Shown: one piece after another, positions 37,748 through 44,072 of the stretch
Position numbering within the stretch: the first letter of the stretch is position 1
Layout: each line of letters opens with the position of its first letter
NCBI RefSeq assembly: GCF_030758975.1
Contig: NZ_CP132359.1
Span: 1,938,811-2,002,810, forward strand
Source: Bosea beijingensis
GTDB taxonomy: Bacteria > Pseudomonadota > Alphaproteobacteria > Rhizobiales > Beijerinckiaceae
Direction of reading: 5' to 3'
Length of the DNA stretch: 64,000 bases
The notes under the pieces: generated by a model
The model's database searches: none
Seen by the model: only the letters and a program-made list of their open reading frames with translations
Told to the model about the DNA's origin: nothing
Made by a program: the position numbers and the translations under genes

Positions 37748-37864
37748 GAAGGCTCCGTTCCGGCGGACATTCCCTTTCGTACCATGGAGGAGAGGGCAGG
37801 GAGAGAGTAAAATTAAACACTCATCAATGTGGTTTGTAGAAAAAAACACTATGGCCTGTATTGT

Positions 37865-37893
37865 TTGACAAAACGAACGATTGGACCTAAAAG
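37865..37893 (+). promoter_or_regulatory. Sigma70-type promoter of the first riboswitch unit
   Basis: TTGACA at 37865-37870, 17 bp, then TAAAAG at 37888-37893 (4 of 6 bases of TATAAT). Transcription would start near 37900, directly at the base of the SAM-II aptamer. Confidence 0.65.
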
Positions 37894-37896
37894 TCG

Positions 37897-37956
37897 GATA
37901 CGCGCCGATTTGAGCCACCAGCTTGCGGGCGCGAAACAAGTGCAGCTAAAGCGTGG
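37897..37956 (+). promoter_or_regulatory. SAM-II riboswitch, copy 1
   Basis: The sequence CGCGCCGATTTGAGCC, then AGCTTGCGGGCGCG, then GTGCAGCTAAAGCG matches the SAM-II aptamer layout: stem P1 pairs CGCGCC (37901-37906) with GGCGCG (37928-37933), the GATTT loop is conserved, and a downstream AGCTAAA forms the pseudoknot strand. SAM-II is typical of Alphaproteobacteria and lowers expression of methionine or sulfur genes when S-adenosylmethionine is high. The sulfonate-type transporter follows, with start codon at 38008. A 23-codon frame starting at the aptamer's GTG 37940 ends at TGA 38009-38011, overlapping that start codon. Confidence 0.8.
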
Positions 37957-38007
37957 GGCCAAGGACGCCACCCGTCCCGATCCCTCGCATCACCAGAGGG
38001 ACCAATC

Positions 38008-38970
38008 ATGACCAAGATCACCCGCCGCCTCGCGCTCGCCTTCGTCGCTGCCGCCGGCCTCGCCGCGCCGGCCTTTGCGCAGGCGCCCAAGGAGATCCGG
38101 CTCGATTATGCGACCTACAATCCCGTCAGCCTCCTGCTGAAGGAGCGCGGCTTCCTCGAGAAGGCGCTGGAGGCCGACGGCGTCAAGGTCCGCTGGGTTC
38201 TGTCCGCCGGATCGAACAAGGCGCTTGAATTCCTCAATGCCGGGTCGATCGATTTCGGCTCGACCGCCGGCGCCGCCGCCCTGATCGGCAAGATCAACGG
38301 CAATCCGATCAAGTCGATCTATGTCTATTCCCGGCCGGAATGGACGGCGCTGGTCACCGGCGCCAAGAGCGAGATCACCAAGGTCGCCGATCTCAAGGGC
38401 AAGCGCGTCGCCGTCACGCGCGGTACCGATCCGCATATCTTCCTCGTCCGCGCCCTGGCCGATGCCAGGCTGACCGAGAAGGACGTCAAGCTCGTCCTGC
38501 TCCAGCATGCCGATGGCCGCCTCGCGCTGGAGCGCGGCGATGTCGATGCCTGGGCCGGGCTCGACCCGATGATGGCCGCAGCCGAGGTCGAGAGCGGCGC
38601 GAAGCTGTTCTACCGCAAGCCGGAGGACAACACCTGGGGCATCCTCAATGTCCGCGAGGCCTTCGCCAACGAGAACCCCGCGCTGGTGAAAAAGGTGCTG
38701 GCGGCCTACGAGCAGGCCCGCGCCTACGCCCTCGCCAATCCGGCCGAAGTGAAGAAGGTGCTGGTCGATGCGACCAAGCTCTCCGACGCCGTGATCGAGC
38801 GCCAGCTCACCCGCACCGAGCTGACCCATTCCACCATCGGCCAGGCTCAGATCGACGGCATCACTGCCGCCGGCCTCGCGCTGAAGGAGGCAGGGGTTCT
38901 GCCGGCCTCGACCGACGTGAAGGCCGCGGTCGACGCACTGCTCGACCGGCGCTTCGCCGCCACCAACTGA
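38008..38970 (+). CDS. Sulfonate/nitrate-type ABC transporter substrate-binding protein
   Basis: A 320-residue periplasmic binding protein of the SsuA/TauA/NrtA group. A signal peptide (MTKITRRLALAFVAAAG, cleaved after FAQA near residue 25) precedes the two lobes, with ASLLLKERG-type and SIDFGSTAGAAALIG segments and DPMMAAAEVESGAKLF in the second lobe. It likely binds aliphatic sulfonates or a related sulfur compound; the exact ligand is not visible. A SAM-II riboswitch upstream suggests that intake of the sulfur source is lowered when SAM is abundant. It is followed by permease and ATPase genes. Confidence 0.88.
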   Translation: MTKITRRLALAFVAAAGLAAPAFAQAPKEIRLDYATYNPVSLLLKERGFLEKALEADGVKVRWVLSAGSNKALEFLNAGSIDFGSTAGAAALIGKINGNPIKSIYVYSRPEWTALVTGAKSEITKVADLKGKRVAVTRGTDPHIFLVRALADARLTEKDVKLVLLQHADGRLALERGDVDAWAGLDPMMAAAEVESGAKLFYRKPEDNTWGILNVREAFANENPALVKKVLAAYEQARAYALANPAEVKKVLVDATKLSDAVIERQLTRTELTHSTIGQAQIDGITAAGLALKEAGVLPASTDVKAAVDALLDRRFAATN

Positions 38971-38985
38971 CGGCAACCCGAGGCG

Positions 38986-39816
38986 ATGAGCGTCCTGGAG
39001 ATCGCGCCCGCCATCGACGAGCCGGAGCGGCGCCCCGCCGCTCCGCGCCGCTCCTATGGCCTCGCGATCGTCGGCTTCGTCGTGCCGGTGGTGCTGGCCG
39101 TCCTCTGGGAATGGCTCGTCGCGGCCGGTATCGCCAATGGCCGCCTGATGCCGCCGCCCAGCGTCGTCGGGCGCACGCTCTGGGGCCTCGCTGCCTCGGG
39201 CGAGCTCCTGATCCATGCCGGGGCGACGCTCTGGCGGGTCGCCGCCGGCTTCGGCCTCGGCGCGCTGGCCGGCACGGTGCTCGGCGCGCTGACGGGCGCG
39301 CTGCCCGTCGCGCGCAGCCTGCTCGACCCGACCTTGCAGGCGCTGCGCGCGATCCCCTCGATCGCCTGGGTGCCGCTCTTCATCCTCTGGCTCGGCATCT
39401 TCGAGGCCTCGAAGGTGGCGCTGATCGCGGTCGGCGTCTTCTTCCCGGTCTATCTTGGCGTCGCCGCCGCGATCCAGGGCATCGACCGCAAGATCGTCGA
39501 GGTCGGCCGGGTCTTCCGCCTCTCGCGCCTCGCCATGGTCCGACGTGTCCTGCTGCCGGCAATCCTGCCCGCCTGGATCGTCGCGCTGCGCTCCGGCCTT
39601 GGCCTCGGCTTCATGTTCGTCGTCGCGGCCGAGATCATGGGGGCGAGCGAGGGGCTGGGCTATCTGCTCGTGGATGGCCAGCAGCTCGGCCGTCCCGACA
39701 CCATCATCGCGGCCATCATCAGCTTCGCCGTGCTCGGCAAGCTGGCGGACGGCCTGCTCGTCGCCATCACGCGGCCTTTCCTGACATGGCAGGATACGGC
39801 GCGCGACAAGCTCTGA
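38986..39816 (+). CDS. ABC transporter permease (SsuC type)
   Basis: A 276-residue inner-membrane permease with about six helices. The binding-protein-dependent transport motif EAA loop is EVGRVFRLSRLAMVRRVLLPA (about residues 172-192), the contact to the ATPase. It is the membrane component of the transporter with 38008 and 39825, and it starts 15 bp after the binding-protein gene. Confidence 0.9.
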   Translation: MSVLEIAPAIDEPERRPAAPRRSYGLAIVGFVVPVVLAVLWEWLVAAGIANGRLMPPPSVVGRTLWGLAASGELLIHAGATLWRVAAGFGLGALAGTVLGALTGALPVARSLLDPTLQALRAIPSIAWVPLFILWLGIFEASKVALIAVGVFFPVYLGVAAAIQGIDRKIVEVGRVFRLSRLAMVRRVLLPAILPAWIVALRSGLGLGFMFVVAAEIMGASEGLGYLLVDGQQLGRPDTIIAAIISFAVLGKLADGLLVAITRPFLTWQDTARDKL

Positions 39817-39824
39817 GGCTTATC

Positions 39825-40607
39825 GTGCTGAGTTTCGACCGGCTCTCCAAGATCTATGCCGACGGCACGCGCGCTCTGTCGGCGATCACGCTCGACGTCG
39901 GGCGCGGCGAGATCGTCGCCCTGCTCGGCGGTTCCGGCTGCGGCAAGACCACTTTGCTGCGCCTCGTCGCCGGACTCGACCGGCCGAGCGAAGGCGCGAT
40001 CCGCCTCGATGGGGAAGTGATCGCTGAGCCGCGCGCCGATGTCGGCGTCATCTTCCAGGAGCCGCGGCTCTTCCCCTGGCTCAGCGTCGCCGAGAATGCG
40101 GGCTTCGGCCTGTCGCATCTCCCGACTTCCGAGCGCGAGGGGCTGGTGAGCAATGCGCTGATCCGCGTCGGCCTCGCCGGACATGACAAGCGCTGGCCGC
40201 GCGAGCTCTCCGGAGGCCAGCAGCAGCGCGTCGCCATCGCCCGTGCCCTCGTCACGAAGCCGAAGCTCCTGCTGATGGACGAGCCTTTCTCGGCGCTCGA
40301 CGCCACGACGCGGGCGAGCCTGCACGGCCACCTCCTGGCGCTCTGGCAGGAGAGCCGCCCGACGGTGGTCATGGTCACGCATGATGTCGAGGAGGCCGTG
40401 ACCCTGGCCGACCGCATCGTGGTGATGCAGCCCAAGCCCGGCCGCATCTTCGACGAGCTCGACAACCCCCTGGCCCGGCCGCGCGACCGGCTCTCGCCCG
40501 CCTTCGAGGCGGCGAAGCGCGAGGCTCTGCGCGCGCTCGACCGCTCCTTGCGCGACGAAGCCCCGCATCAGGAGAAGGCGGCCGAAACCGCCGGGATGTG
40601 GTGGTGA
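39825..40607 (+). CDS. ABC transporter ATP-binding protein (SsuB type)
   Basis: A 260-residue ABC ATPase with all motifs intact: Walker A GGSGCGKTT with Lys41, Q-loop VIFQEPRLFPW, signature LSGGQQQRV, Walker B LLLMDEP and H-loop VVMVTHDVEEA. It starts at GTG 39825, 8 bp after the permease stop. It energises import by the sulfonate-type system. Its degenerate relative lies 160 bp downstream. Confidence 0.93.
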   Translation: MLSFDRLSKIYADGTRALSAITLDVGRGEIVALLGGSGCGKTTLLRLVAGLDRPSEGAIRLDGEVIAEPRADVGVIFQEPRLFPWLSVAENAGFGLSHLPTSEREGLVSNALIRVGLAGHDKRWPRELSGGQQQRVAIARALVTKPKLLLMDEPFSALDATTRASLHGHLLALWQESRPTVVMVTHDVEEAVTLADRIVVMQPKPGRIFDELDNPLARPRDRLSPAFEAAKREALRALDRSLRDEAPHQEKAAETAGMWW

Positions 40608-40614
40608 GTATCGT

Positions 40615-40643
40615 TTGACAAAACGGACGTACGGACCTTAAAA
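40615..40643 (+). promoter_or_regulatory. Sigma70-type promoter of the second riboswitch unit
   Basis: TTGACA at 40615-40620 and TTAAAA at 40638-40643 (17 bp apart), a close copy of the promoter at 37865. It starts just after the ATPase stop, so the second unit can be transcribed independently. Confidence 0.6.
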
Positions 40644-40646
40644 GAG

Positions 40647-40706
40647 GATACGCGCCGATTTGAGCCTCAGCTTGCGGGCGCGAAACAAATGCAGCTAAAG
40701 CGCGGG
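40647..40706 (+). promoter_or_regulatory. SAM-II riboswitch, copy 2
   Basis: The same aptamer as at 37897, with GATACGCGCCGATTTGAGCC, then CAGCTTGCGGGCGCG and ATGCAGCTAAAGCG. About 92 bp of promoter and aptamer are shared with copy 1, differing at roughly ten positions by eye. It precedes the degenerate ATPase gene (start 40767). An ATG at 40689 lies inside the aptamer and is in frame with that gene, so the start may be affected by folding. Confidence 0.8.
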
Positions 40707-40766
40707 ACGACGGGACGGCTGATGCCGTCGGCGCTCCTTCCGCCTTGTCTATGGATGGAGCCAGCG

Positions 40767-41477
40767 ATGTCGGCCTCTCTTCACGATTTCTCCCGCTCTC
40801 CTGAGAATGCGCCGGCGCGCCCCAGCGCTGGCCAGGTTATCGCCCTGCTCGGTCCTTCCGACGTGAGGGGGGCAAGCTTGCGGGCTTTCGCCGGCCTGAA
40901 GGCCGACGATGGAGCGATCCCGACCGCTGAGATCGGCCTGCTCTGTGCCCGGCCGCGCTTCTTTGCCTGGCTCGACCTCACCGAAAACCTGGCCTTCGCC
41001 CTGCCGAAGGCGACACCGTTCGAGCGCGAGGGCCTGATCGCCAATGTGCTGGTCCGCCTCGGCCTCGCCGGGCAGGCGAAGCAGCGGCCGGCCGAGCTCT
41101 CGCCCGAGGGGCTGCTCCGGCTCGCCATCGCCCGCCTCCTGCTGGTCAGGCCGCGGCTGCTGCTGATCGACGAGCCCTTTGCGGCGCTCGATGCCGAGGC
41201 GCGTGCCCGGCTCGCCGCCTTCCTGCCGGAGCTCTGTACGCAGGCGCGCCCTGCCGTCGTCATCGCCACCGGCTCGGTCGAGGAGGCCCTGCGCCTGGCC
41301 GATCGCATCCACGTCCTGCCGCGAGAGCCGGGACCGGTTGCCTTCAGCCTCGACAACCTGCTGGCGCGGCCGCGCCAGGAGGGCTCCGTCGGCTTCGTGA
41401 CGCTGCGCCGCGAATTGCGCCGGGCGCTCGAAAAGGAAAGCCGGCATGCCGTGCCGGACGTGGAGGTGGCGGCCTGA
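40767..41477 (+). CDS. Degenerate ABC ATPase-like protein
   Basis: A 236-residue relative of the ATPase at 39825, with the nucleotide-contact motifs lost. Walker A reads LGPSDVRGAS (no GKT), the Q-loop Gln is Ala (CARPRFFAW), the signature reads LSPEG, and the H-loop His is Gly159 (IATGSVEEA). Walker B LLLIDEP with Glu136 and the D-loop are kept. The usual N-terminal strand region is shortened. It has no internal stops, and the flanking helices stay similar to the partner. It cannot bind ATP in the normal way; a regulatory or structural role, for example pairing with the active ATPase, is inferred. Start 40767 or 40689. Confidence 0.85.
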   Translation: MSASLHDFSRSPENAPARPSAGQVIALLGPSDVRGASLRAFAGLKADDGAIPTAEIGLLCARPRFFAWLDLTENLAFALPKATPFEREGLIANVLVRLGLAGQAKQRPAELSPEGLLRLAIARLLLVRPRLLLIDEPFAALDAEARARLAAFLPELCTQARPAVVIATGSVEEALRLADRIHVLPREPGPVAFSLDNLLARPRQEGSVGFVTLRRELRRALEKESRHAVPDVEVAA

Positions 41478-41518
41478 AGCGGTTACAAGCCGGCGGCTGC
41501 CTTAGGAGGAATTCAATC

Positions 41519-42034
41519 ATGGACGTCACCGCGCTGCGCGCCTTGCAGGCTCCGCTCAAGGACGAATACCGCACCAATCCCGAGGCGGCGGTCATCACGC
41601 TCAAGGCTCATGGCGAGCTCGACGACCAGCATATCGCCTGCAAGGTCGAGACCGGCCGCGCCATCGCGCTTGCCGGCCTGCACCCGGCGACCGGCGGTTC
41701 GGGCGCCGAGCTCTGCTCCGGCGACATGCTGCTGGAGGCGCTGGTCGCCTGCGCCGGCGTGACGCTCAAGGCGGTCGCGACGGCGCTGGAGATCGACCTG
41801 AAGAAGGGCGTGGTCCGCGCCGAGGGCGATCTCGACTTCCGTGGCACGCTCGGCGTCGCCAAGGATGCGGCGGTCGGCTTCAAGGCGATCCGCCTGTTCT
41901 TCGACGTCGAGAGCGACGCGTCGCAGGAGAAGCTCGACACGCTGCTCAAGCTCACCGAGCGCTATTGCGTGGTGTTCCAGACGCTGAACGTGAAGCCGGA
42001 ATTGTCGGCGACCCTGCAAAGCAACGCCTCCTGA
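41519..42034 (+). CDS. OsmC family protein
   Basis: A 171-residue OsmC-family protein, cytoplasmic. The two conserved cysteines are Cys78 (EALVACAGVTLKA) and Cys150 (LTERYCVVFQ), which in the family reduce organic hydroperoxides. It begins 41 bp after the degenerate ATPase, with TAGGAGG before ATG 41519. It is probably in the same SAM-II-controlled unit, so a link to sulfur metabolism or thiol peroxide removal is likely but inferred. Confidence 0.9.
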   Translation: MDVTALRALQAPLKDEYRTNPEAAVITLKAHGELDDQHIACKVETGRAIALAGLHPATGGSGAELCSGDMLLEALVACAGVTLKAVATALEIDLKKGVVRAEGDLDFRGTLGVAKDAAVGFKAIRLFFDVESDASQEKLDTLLKLTERYCVVFQTLNVKPELSATLQSNAS

Positions 42035-42080
42035 CACGGGTCAGGAGGCGCCTGAGAACAGGGTTGGACGGGAGGGCGAG

Positions 42081-44072
42081 CTAGAACTCCTCCCAGCCCG
42101 TGGTGCCGTTGCGGGCGTTCACCGCACGCTGGGCGGGCGCGGGCTTGGCCGCGGCAACCGGGCGCCGCGATTGCTGGAAGGCTGCTTCGGCGAGCTGGCG
42201 CAAACGGTCAGGTTCGGACGCAGCCGGCGTGGCGGCGGCCGGCGCGCGCGACGCGGCACCGCCACCTTGATTGGTCCGGAAGGTCGCGACGAGCGTGTTG
42301 AGCTGCTCGATCCGGCCCGAGAGCGAGCCGGCCGAGGCCGCGCTCTGCTCGGACAAGGCCGCGTTCTGCTGCGTCATCTCGTCGAGATGCGCGACCGCCT
42401 GGCTCATCTCGTCGATGCCGTTGGCCTGTTCGCCGGAGGCTGCCGAGATGTCGGCGATCGTCGCCGCGACCTTCTGCGAGGCCGCGAGGATCTGCGTCAG
42501 GGATTCGCCGGCCTTGCGGACGAGCTGGACGCCGTCGGCGACCTCGGCATTCGACGAGGAGATCAGGGTCGAGATGTCCTTGGCCGCCTCGCTCGAGCGC
42601 TGCGCCAGCGTGCGAACCTCGGAGGCGACGACGGCAAAGCCCTTGCCGGCATCGCCGGCGCGCGCCGCCTCGACCGCGGCGTTGAGCGCCAGCAGGTTGG
42701 TCTGGAAGGCGATGTCGTCGATCACGCGGATGATGTCGGAGATCTTCTGCGATGCCGTCTCGATCCGGGCCATGGCGTCGACTGCCTGGCCGGCGATCGT
42801 GCCGCCCGAGCGGGCTGCGCTGGCGGCCTCGTCCGCAGCGGTCGCCGCGGCGCGGGAGGCCTGGGCCGAGGCCTTCACCGAAGCGGCGAGCTCCTCGGTC
42901 GTGGCGGCCGTCTCCTCCAGCGAGGAGGCCTGCTCCTCGGTGCGCTTCGACAGGTCGTCGGCGCCCATGCTGATCTCGCGGGCGGCGAGGCCGACATCGG
43001 CCGAGGTCGTCTGGATCGTGGCGACCGTGTCCGAGAGGCGGTCGACCGTCTCGTTGAAGTCGTCGCGCAACTTGGCATAGGCGGCGGGCATGTCAGCCTC
43101 GATGCGGTGGCGCAAATCCCCCTCCGAAAGGGCGGCAAGCCCCTTGGCCAGCGCGTCGACGACCCGTTCCAGCTCCTGAGCCTGCTCCATCTGCTCGCGC
43201 GTCGCAATCTGCCGCTGCGCCTCTGTCTGGCGGCGGGTTTCGCCCATCAGTTCAGCCTGCGCGGCAGCATCCTGTTCCAATCGGATCTTCTCTACGGATG
43301 CGTGGTGCAACACCTCGACGGCGTTGGCCATGGCACCGAACTCGCTGTCGCCGCCGAAAGCGGGAACGGGCGTGTCCAGATCGCCTTGAGCGAGCCGCTT
43401 CAGAGCCGCGCTCAAGACGGCGAGCGGCTTCATCATGCGGCGCACCAGCCAGAACAGCAGTCCCGCGGCGACGGCCGCAATCGCCAGGCCGGCAACGATG
43501 TTGTCGCGGATCATCTCGCCGATGACGGCGAGGAATTCTTCCTGCTTGATGCCGACATAGAGAATGCCGATGACGCTCCCATCCGACTTCTGGATGATCG
43601 GCTCGTAGATCGTGAAATAGGGCACGCCGAGAATATCGGCTGCGCCGGAATAGGTCCGCTTCTCCTTGAGGACAGCATCATAGGCCGGGCCCGGCGCCAG
43701 CTTGGTGCCGACAGCCCGCGTGCCGTCCGGCTTCATGACATTGGTCGTCACCCGCGTGTCGCCCATGAAGACGGTGGCGGTGCCGCCGGAAAGCTCCTTC
43801 ACCTTGTCGACCGCGGCGAAGTTCCCGTTGACGGTTTCGTTGCCAAAAATGAGTTTGCCGCCATCGAACCTGGGCTCGCCCTTGGTCAGAAGGATATCCC
43901 GCAGAAGGTTGATGTTGACCGTGAGGCTCGACTGGGCTCGCTCCCTCATGGCCTTCTCGGCCGCGCGAAGCGACACCCCGACCGAGGCGGCAACGGCAAT
44001 ACCGACAATCAATACGGCCAATATCGCCAGACGTGTCGCGATCGGAAGTCGCAGAAAAGACAGTTTCAGCAT
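42081..44072 (-). CDS. Methyl-accepting chemotaxis protein with Cache domain
   Basis: A 663-residue chemoreceptor. The first membrane helix (about 12-33) and second (about 185-210) bracket a periplasmic Cache-type ligand domain. A HAMP region follows ([18 protein letters not shown]), then a long signalling domain with the hairpin tip [20 protein letters not shown] near residues 450-470. The C-terminus is a Gly-rich tail ending GWEEF, a pentapeptide like those that tether CheR methyltransferase. The ligand is unknown. It stands alone. Confidence 0.95.

Follow-up and report, generated by a model that had tools for sequence, protein, structure and literature searches.

The SAM-II class of S-adenosylmethionine (SAM) riboswitches has been described by Corbino et al. 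(PMC1273637), and the excerpts of Leyn et al. at hand place it, under the name SAM_alpha, in Rhizobiales and Rhodobacterales only, with metY as its core target and hom, metA, metX, metC and metW as further targets; in those excerpts, neither a transporter nor osmC is named under SAM_alpha (PMC4239095). From the parts of two other reports consulted, osmC of Ca. Pelagibacter ubique lies downstream of a SAM-V riboswitch, with its mRNA 50-fold up in sulfur-limited exponential phase (PMC5069961), and the bhmT-osmC-ordL locus of that organism also appears in PMC2704228. Here, we analyzed a window of 64,000 nucleotides from Bosea beijingensis (contig NZ_CP132359.1), in which two SAM-II-type leaders precede, respectively, the genes of an SsuA-family ABC transporter and those of a conserved pseudo-ATPase and an OsmC-family protein. 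Bosea beijingensis is a soil-type bacterium. We consider it reasonably probable that the locus forms an operon for transport and OsmC under the control of sulfur status, with a duplicated leader-ATPase unit and leaders that act as translational OFF switches. A literature search over a partial library found no paper with this arrangement.

The two leader stretches (37861-37953, 93 bp, and 40611-40702, 92 bp) lie 2.75 kb apart, on the plus strand, and are identical at 83 of 94 alignment columns (88%). Each carries a promoter-like element ahead of its aptamer: in unit 1 (37865-37893), TTGACA at 37865-37870 is followed, after a 17-nt spacer, by TAAAAG at 37888-37893, while in unit 2 (40615-40644), TTGACA at 40615-40620, beginning 7 nt past the stop codon of the active ATPase gene, is followed after 18 nt by TAAAAG at 40639-40644. 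An earlier note on this DNA had claimed two such promoter and SAM-II units, and the paired layout was borne out. The repeat goes beyond chance, as the same leaders precede the same genes throughout the genus. In a sample of 67 Bosea genomes, the Rfam SAM-II profile (RF00521) gave 129 matches in 111 clusters, every one of which was examined, with the locus genes assigned by tblastn using the window proteins and metNIQ; we refer to copy-1-type leaders as class A, to copy-2-type leaders as class B, and to those before metNIQ as class C. TTGACA was found in 61 of 63 class-A and in all 22 class-B leaders, at a distance to the aptamer motif GATTT of exactly 42 nt in 57 and 17 of them, respectively. 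Scanned with a strict sigma-70 consensus, 37750-42100 gave no promoter, the -10 element being weak.

The aptamers themselves occupy 37892-37969 (copy 1, core 37901-37953; 33.9 bits, E 3e-6) and 40642-40717 (copy 2, core 40651-40702; 28.9 bits, E 5.6e-5) on the plus strand, and RF00521 was the best Rfam match at both sites when an E-value threshold was used, with whole-genome E-values of 1.4e-5 and 3.3e-4. Their core of GATTT, CTTGC and GCTAAA is invariant in all 63 class-A leaders (57 from Bosea and 6 from other genera) and all 22 class-B leaders, both window copies included. Mapped by eye, these letters match those around SAM in the SAM-II/SAM-V structures, as far as the excerpt of PMC6061858 describes them; the helix names used here follow the corresponding part of PMC5352136. 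The pseudoknot pairing (the P1 stem plus P2) is possible in the window copies. Two double changes in P1, seen between classes only, set these leaders apart from canonical leaders of the family (CGCGCC/GGCGCG versus CGTGG/CCACG; 15 canonical leaders, 2 of 17 not having fitted the pattern), and P2a of the class-A and class-B leaders is shorter and different. The two classes are also distinct from each other: the loop GAGCCTCAG is common to 22/22 class-B leaders and is not one of the eight most frequent class-A loops, which together account for 60 of the 63 class-A leaders. Since class B has a loop of its own throughout, the leader copies diverged before these species split, and a recent duplication is ruled out.

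Downstream of copy 1 stand, in order and on the plus strand, genes for a substrate-binding protein (SBP) of the SsuA family (38008-38970; TIGR01728 SsuA_fam 235.7 bits, cut-off 163.5), an SsuC-like permease (38986-39816; PF00528, with the best NCBIfam match, PRK11365, at 170 bits, below its cut-off of 347), and an ABC ATPase with canonical motifs and a GTG start (39825-40607; PF00005 129.1 bits, with PRK11248 at 223.4 bits, below its cut-off of 357). Downstream of copy 2, on the same strand, are the pseudo-ATPase gene (40767-41477) and osmC (41519-42034; PF02566 60.8 bits, cut-off 27.5), which encodes a protein with four cysteines (41, 66, 78 and 150) that is peroxidase-like, judging from its sequence. 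The complete sulfonate-type transporter claimed in the earlier note is present as a whole SBP-permease-ATPase set; SsuA_fam alone passes, the permease and the ATPases falling below every equivalog cut-off shown, and the putative substrate is a sulfur compound. The same note had described a degenerate ATPase and an osmC gene after copy 2. The catalytic residues are indeed gone and osmC does come next, but the ATPase is not broken, being conserved and under purifying selection, and the osmC reading frame looks intact.

This organization recurs across the genus. The commonest form, at 37 loci, is leader-SBP-permease-ATPase-osmC, and 18 loci have the paired form, with both leader copies 2.7-3.8 kb apart. 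Four retain the copy-2 unit alone (G053, G060, G059, where it is frameshifted, and G028, where a contig end cuts it), three consist of a leader, an ATPase-like frame and osmC (G016, G017 and G032), and two are ended by contig boundaries (G042 and G046); at 45 loci, a different leader subtype precedes metN-metI-metQ, and two loci (L193 and L200) remain. The clusters form a few leader types, and 109 of the 111 precede these operons or metNIQ. With the leader found before transporter, ATPase or osmC genes in 64 of the 67 genomes (none in G047, G052 or G064), the arrangement is no one-off. osmC lies 3' in all 61 of the transporter/ATPase loci not cut by a contig end, and glnD is divergent and upstream in all 14 loci checked. 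In the seven genomes with a lone copy-2 unit or a leader, ATPase-like frame and osmC only, a search for the SBP gave no match above 33% identity. In 7 of the 18 pairs, 0.6-1.1 kb separates the active ATPase from the second leader, and the second unit can, thus, stand alone. Four of these seven gaps were read and contain acetyltransferase-like frames, two of them also glyoxalase-like ones (e.g., L152 and L154; names by eye). A single tandem switch was considered and ruled out, as the two leaders are separate and precede different genes.

Outside Bosea, 17 loci of the family were inspected, nine chosen among weak RF00521 matches and eight with the exact class-A core. All 14 class-A loci, from five other genera (6/6 and 8/8), have leader-SBP-permease-ATPase, and 11 of them have osmC (4/6 in the weak-match set and 7/8 in the exact-core set); the other three comprise a metNIQ leader (G077), a distant weak metN match downstream (G194) and a locus with no match (G135). 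The exact class-A core occurs in 48 of 298 genomes and 6 of 43 genera of the family, and in 4 of 397 genomes of the order, all four being Bosea. As a weak control, several loci not having been turned, none of these genes was found in 1.5 kb alongside 17 strong canonical family leaders (L120-L148) out of a set of 30 loci. One class-A aptamer from another genus (L289 in G084, near 1540-1600) has about 35 additional bases between P1 and GCTAAA.

The product of 40767-41477 is a paralogue of the neighboring active ATPase (47% identity) and lacks the Walker A Lys, signature Gly, Q-loop Gln and switch His of an active ABC ATPase. The replacements are specific and recurrent across 22 copies: Walker A Lys to Arg in 21/21 aligned copies, Q-loop Gln to Ala in 20/21, signature Gly to Pro in 20/22, and switch His to Gly in 21/22, with the Walker B DE pair retained in 19/22. 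Among the other 64 ATPase rows, Lys is kept in 62 and Gln, His and the signature Gly in 61 each; the rows that depart from this are the three solo copies from the leader, ATPase-like frame and osmC loci. In a tree, 20 pseudo-ATPase copies group together (100/99), and the three solo proteins branch from the stem of this clade (100/98), although the branches of the solo proteins are long and bootstrap values had not converged. NG86 dN/dS is 0.126-0.361 for the pseudo-ATPase (21 pairs, seven close genomes) versus 0.070-0.141 for the active ATPase (15 pairs). A plain pseudogene is ruled out by these ratios and by the recurrent substitutions, and the sequences, thus, indicate a conserved pseudo-ATPase under purifying selection, not wreckage. 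Between 18 pseudo-ATPase and 16 active rows, with regions named by us, the helical, permease-docking part is equally conserved (0.83 versus 0.84), whereas the N-terminal nucleotide-binding part is less so (0.56-0.68 versus 0.80-0.94). The structure model has a mean pLDDT of 83.7 (low at 1-14, 48-52 and 229-236), and the ten solved folds closest to it all belong to CmpBCD and NrtBCD chains, from relatives that, going by their subunit names, use two different ATPases.

That this protein serves as a non-hydrolysing partner of the transporter is a guess that we advance tentatively, although we regard it as the likeliest role. A more elaborate version, in which the SAM-gated dead ATPase docks on the importer beside or instead of the active one, such that the two units set transporter amount and activity separately, strikes us as distinctly unlikely; if true, it would place a protein-level throttle under riboswitch control. 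The proposal of the earlier note that the second unit buffers or tunes the first is likewise speculative. Possible, if still unlikely, is that the pseudo-ATPase is a mere leading cistron, whose start and frame relay both SAM control and translation to osmC while the protein does little. The constant presence of osmC at the uncut Bosea loci fits this, as do the transporter-less lineages (G053, G060, G016, G017 and G032) that keep leader, ATPase-like frame and osmC, and the one frameshifted copy (G059). However, the dN/dS values and fixed specific substitutions argue for a selected protein, and the 37 single-leader loci manage without any pseudo-ATPase.

As to the mode of control, the Shine-Dalgarno site of each unit lies in a putative hairpin, at 37982-38003 for the SBP gene (CCCTC...GAGGG) and at 40732-40762 for the pseudo-ATPase gene (GCTCCTTCC...GGATGGAGC), both on the plus strand. 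The former is more stable than 197 of 200 shuffles, while the latter is equalled by 28 of 200. In class A, the hairpin pairs the Shine-Dalgarno site with the arm directly upstream, and the arms covary: own arms average -13.53 kcal/mol versus -10.28 kcal/mol for permuted ones, with 0 of 5000 permutations as low, and again 0 of 5000 when one leader per type is used. At or beyond the best 5% of shuffles are 26 of 54 class-A leaders; class B has the same layout, with 5 of 21 leaders reaching that level. The class-A covariation points to translational control, which the portion of PMC9373788 consulted also argues for the SAM-II leader of Sinorhizobium meliloti metA. A terminator scan of 37750-42100 returned three terminator-like sites, where 1.5 would be expected, and neither leader contains one; the sites are 37754-37767 (+), 40589-40606 (+, where the active ATPase gene ends) and 41457-41441 (-). 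In the window, the pseudoknot sequence GCGUGGG is complementary to the hairpin arm CCCUCGC, with one U.U, which suggests a possible switch between pseudoknot and hairpin. This coupling was tried by energy and permutation tests, found no support there, and stays hypothetical.

Several results count against the reading of the locus as a pair of SAM-controlled OFF switches with a transport role. Both window aptamers fall short of the curated Rfam gathering score of 36 bits, as a consequence of which the Rfam scan of the window at the curated threshold reported tRNA alone; the copies are, for the same reason, termed SAM-II-type rather than certified members. P1 does not vary in any class-A or class-B leader and, hence, offers no within-class covariation, and the folding of the bare aptamers gave no signal (z -0.64 and -0.55) with a program that cannot draw pseudoknots. 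For the class-B hairpin, 2537 of 5000 permutations were as low as the leaders' own arms, giving no sign of covariation. For the pairing of the pseudoknot 3' strand with the hairpin arm, 2 of 54 class-A leaders surpassed 95% of their shuffles; among eight permutation tests, between 1360 and 4998 of 5000 permutations were as low in seven, and 74 of 5000 in the remaining one, which used the arm only and 10 class-B leaders. Finally, G053 and G060 retain the pseudo-ATPase without a close SBP, which speaks against a docking role.

Two rival explanations draw on these results. The likeness to SAM-II could be fortuitous and the repeats plain promoter repeats, for which the silence at the curated threshold and the lack of surplus folding stability might be cited; yet the genome-wide E-values, the core invariant in 85 leaders and the placement of nearly all clusters before these operons or metNIQ make this highly improbable, as do relatives above the cut-off (the best match in 5 of 67 Bosea genomes, and L260 from another genus). 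Alternatively, the aptamers could be SAM-II-like but bind another ligand, such as S-adenosylhomocysteine (SAH) or another sulfur compound, given the low RF00521 scores, the altered P2a and the unusual targets; this seems improbable, as the core letters adjoining SAM in known structures are unchanged in those 85 leaders. The earlier note's SAM-II assignment holds as the best profile match at both sites but not at the gathering score. From sequence, the SAM-II reading of both leaders appears well supported but unproven, and we infer SAM as the ligand.

Under that reading, the locus in its commonest form runs from the promoter through SAM-II-type aptamer, SBP, permease and ATPase to osmC. Leader and ATPase were duplicated long ago to give the second unit, with a single duplication as the simplest account: such an event would have put osmC under a second promoter and aptamer, after which the duplicated ATPase would have lost its ATP-hydrolysis residues while retaining its permease-docking part, and different lineages would later have lost either the second unit or the transporter. 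At high SAM, the pseudoknot would form and the hairpin close the Shine-Dalgarno site, translational OFF being most likely for each leader; at low SAM, the site would open, and both units would presumably go up together in sulfur shortage.

Further observations concern other leaders of this type. In the window genome, the profile search gave two sites, and a weaker third SAM-II-type site, before metNIQ, was found by pattern. Class-C leaders (e.g., L172, L175 and L198) are followed by a short frame ending in Cys and Arg codons, which in the window genome is MTIAKASRSQSRFRRMSCRCRR (L287, G000:C1:2707857-2707875, minus strand). At least two Cys occur in the last 8 residues of the frame behind 44 of 50 class-C or unassigned leaders, a count biased by choosing the start with most Cys. 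By its sequence, this frame resembles a cysteine attenuator placed in series with a SAM switch; ahead of cysS, attenuators with Cys codons are known from the part of PMC8632094 consulted. Six of the 45 metNIQ loci (L219, L253, L258 and three more) have two metQ copies after SAM-II-metN-metI. At L193 (G017), a SAM-II-type leader at 1501-1574 is followed by a 25-residue frame, MVYLLNFVINALLRLSAFLRWTRTG, with no neighboring sulfur gene among those searched. The minus strand of copy 2 (40652-40743) matches the Burkholderia sRNA Bp2_287 (RF02424; 26.6 bits). A Caballeronia locus (L297, 1501-1710) scores 95 bits for RF02424, and its reverse complement contains GATTTGAGATCAGCTTGC and GCTAAAGCG together with a terminator and a MetZ-like gene. 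In Achromobacter (L301), RF00521 reaches 37.2 bits ahead of a MetX-like gene (both gene names by eye). Bp2_287 may be a SAM-II-type leader annotated on the wrong strand and, to the extent that the excerpts of Leyn et al. describe it, their 'metXZ' element may perhaps be a SAM-II-type leader as well.

Compared with SAM-II as described, these leaders share GATTT, CTTGC and GCTAAA, in a layout compatible with an H-type pseudoknot, and a place before sulfur-related genes in Rhizobiales, but they fall below the cut-off and have another P1 and P2a, revealing an aptamer lineage that mostly sits just below it. Their targets also differ. As the earlier note had remarked, SAM-II is known mainly before methionine-synthesis genes, in agreement with the list in the Leyn et al. 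excerpts (PMC4239095); since the published regulons found, as excerpted, name such genes only, the transporter-osmC operon and metNIQ are added targets, extending a SAM-II-type regulon beyond methionine synthesis, to uptake and to an OsmC protein. A precedent, the SAM-V/SAM-II locus bhmT-osmC-ordL of Ca. Pelagibacter ubique, likewise has an osmC unit under a SAM riboswitch, up in sulfur limitation there, although, in the excerpts (PMC5069961, PMC2704228), that switch is SAM-V and the partners are bhmT and ordL rather than an SsuA-family transporter or a pseudo-ATPase. The Bosea locus, thus, offers a second link of OsmC to sulfur status in Alphaproteobacteria. Tandem riboswitches, as covered in part of PMC12452182, also place two aptamers of the same class in one locus, but there they share one intergenic region and the same gene, whereas in the Bosea locus each aptamer comes with a promoter-like element and a gene of its own. 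Finally, the transporter resembles SsuABC, TauABC, NrtBCD and CmpBCD, in that its SBP passes TIGR01728 and its pseudo-ATPase folds nearest CmpBCD and NrtBCD, but differs from them in that the second ATPase lacks the catalytic residues, making it a conserved pseudo-ATPase, apparently controlled by a riboswitch, with a role that lends itself to direct testing.

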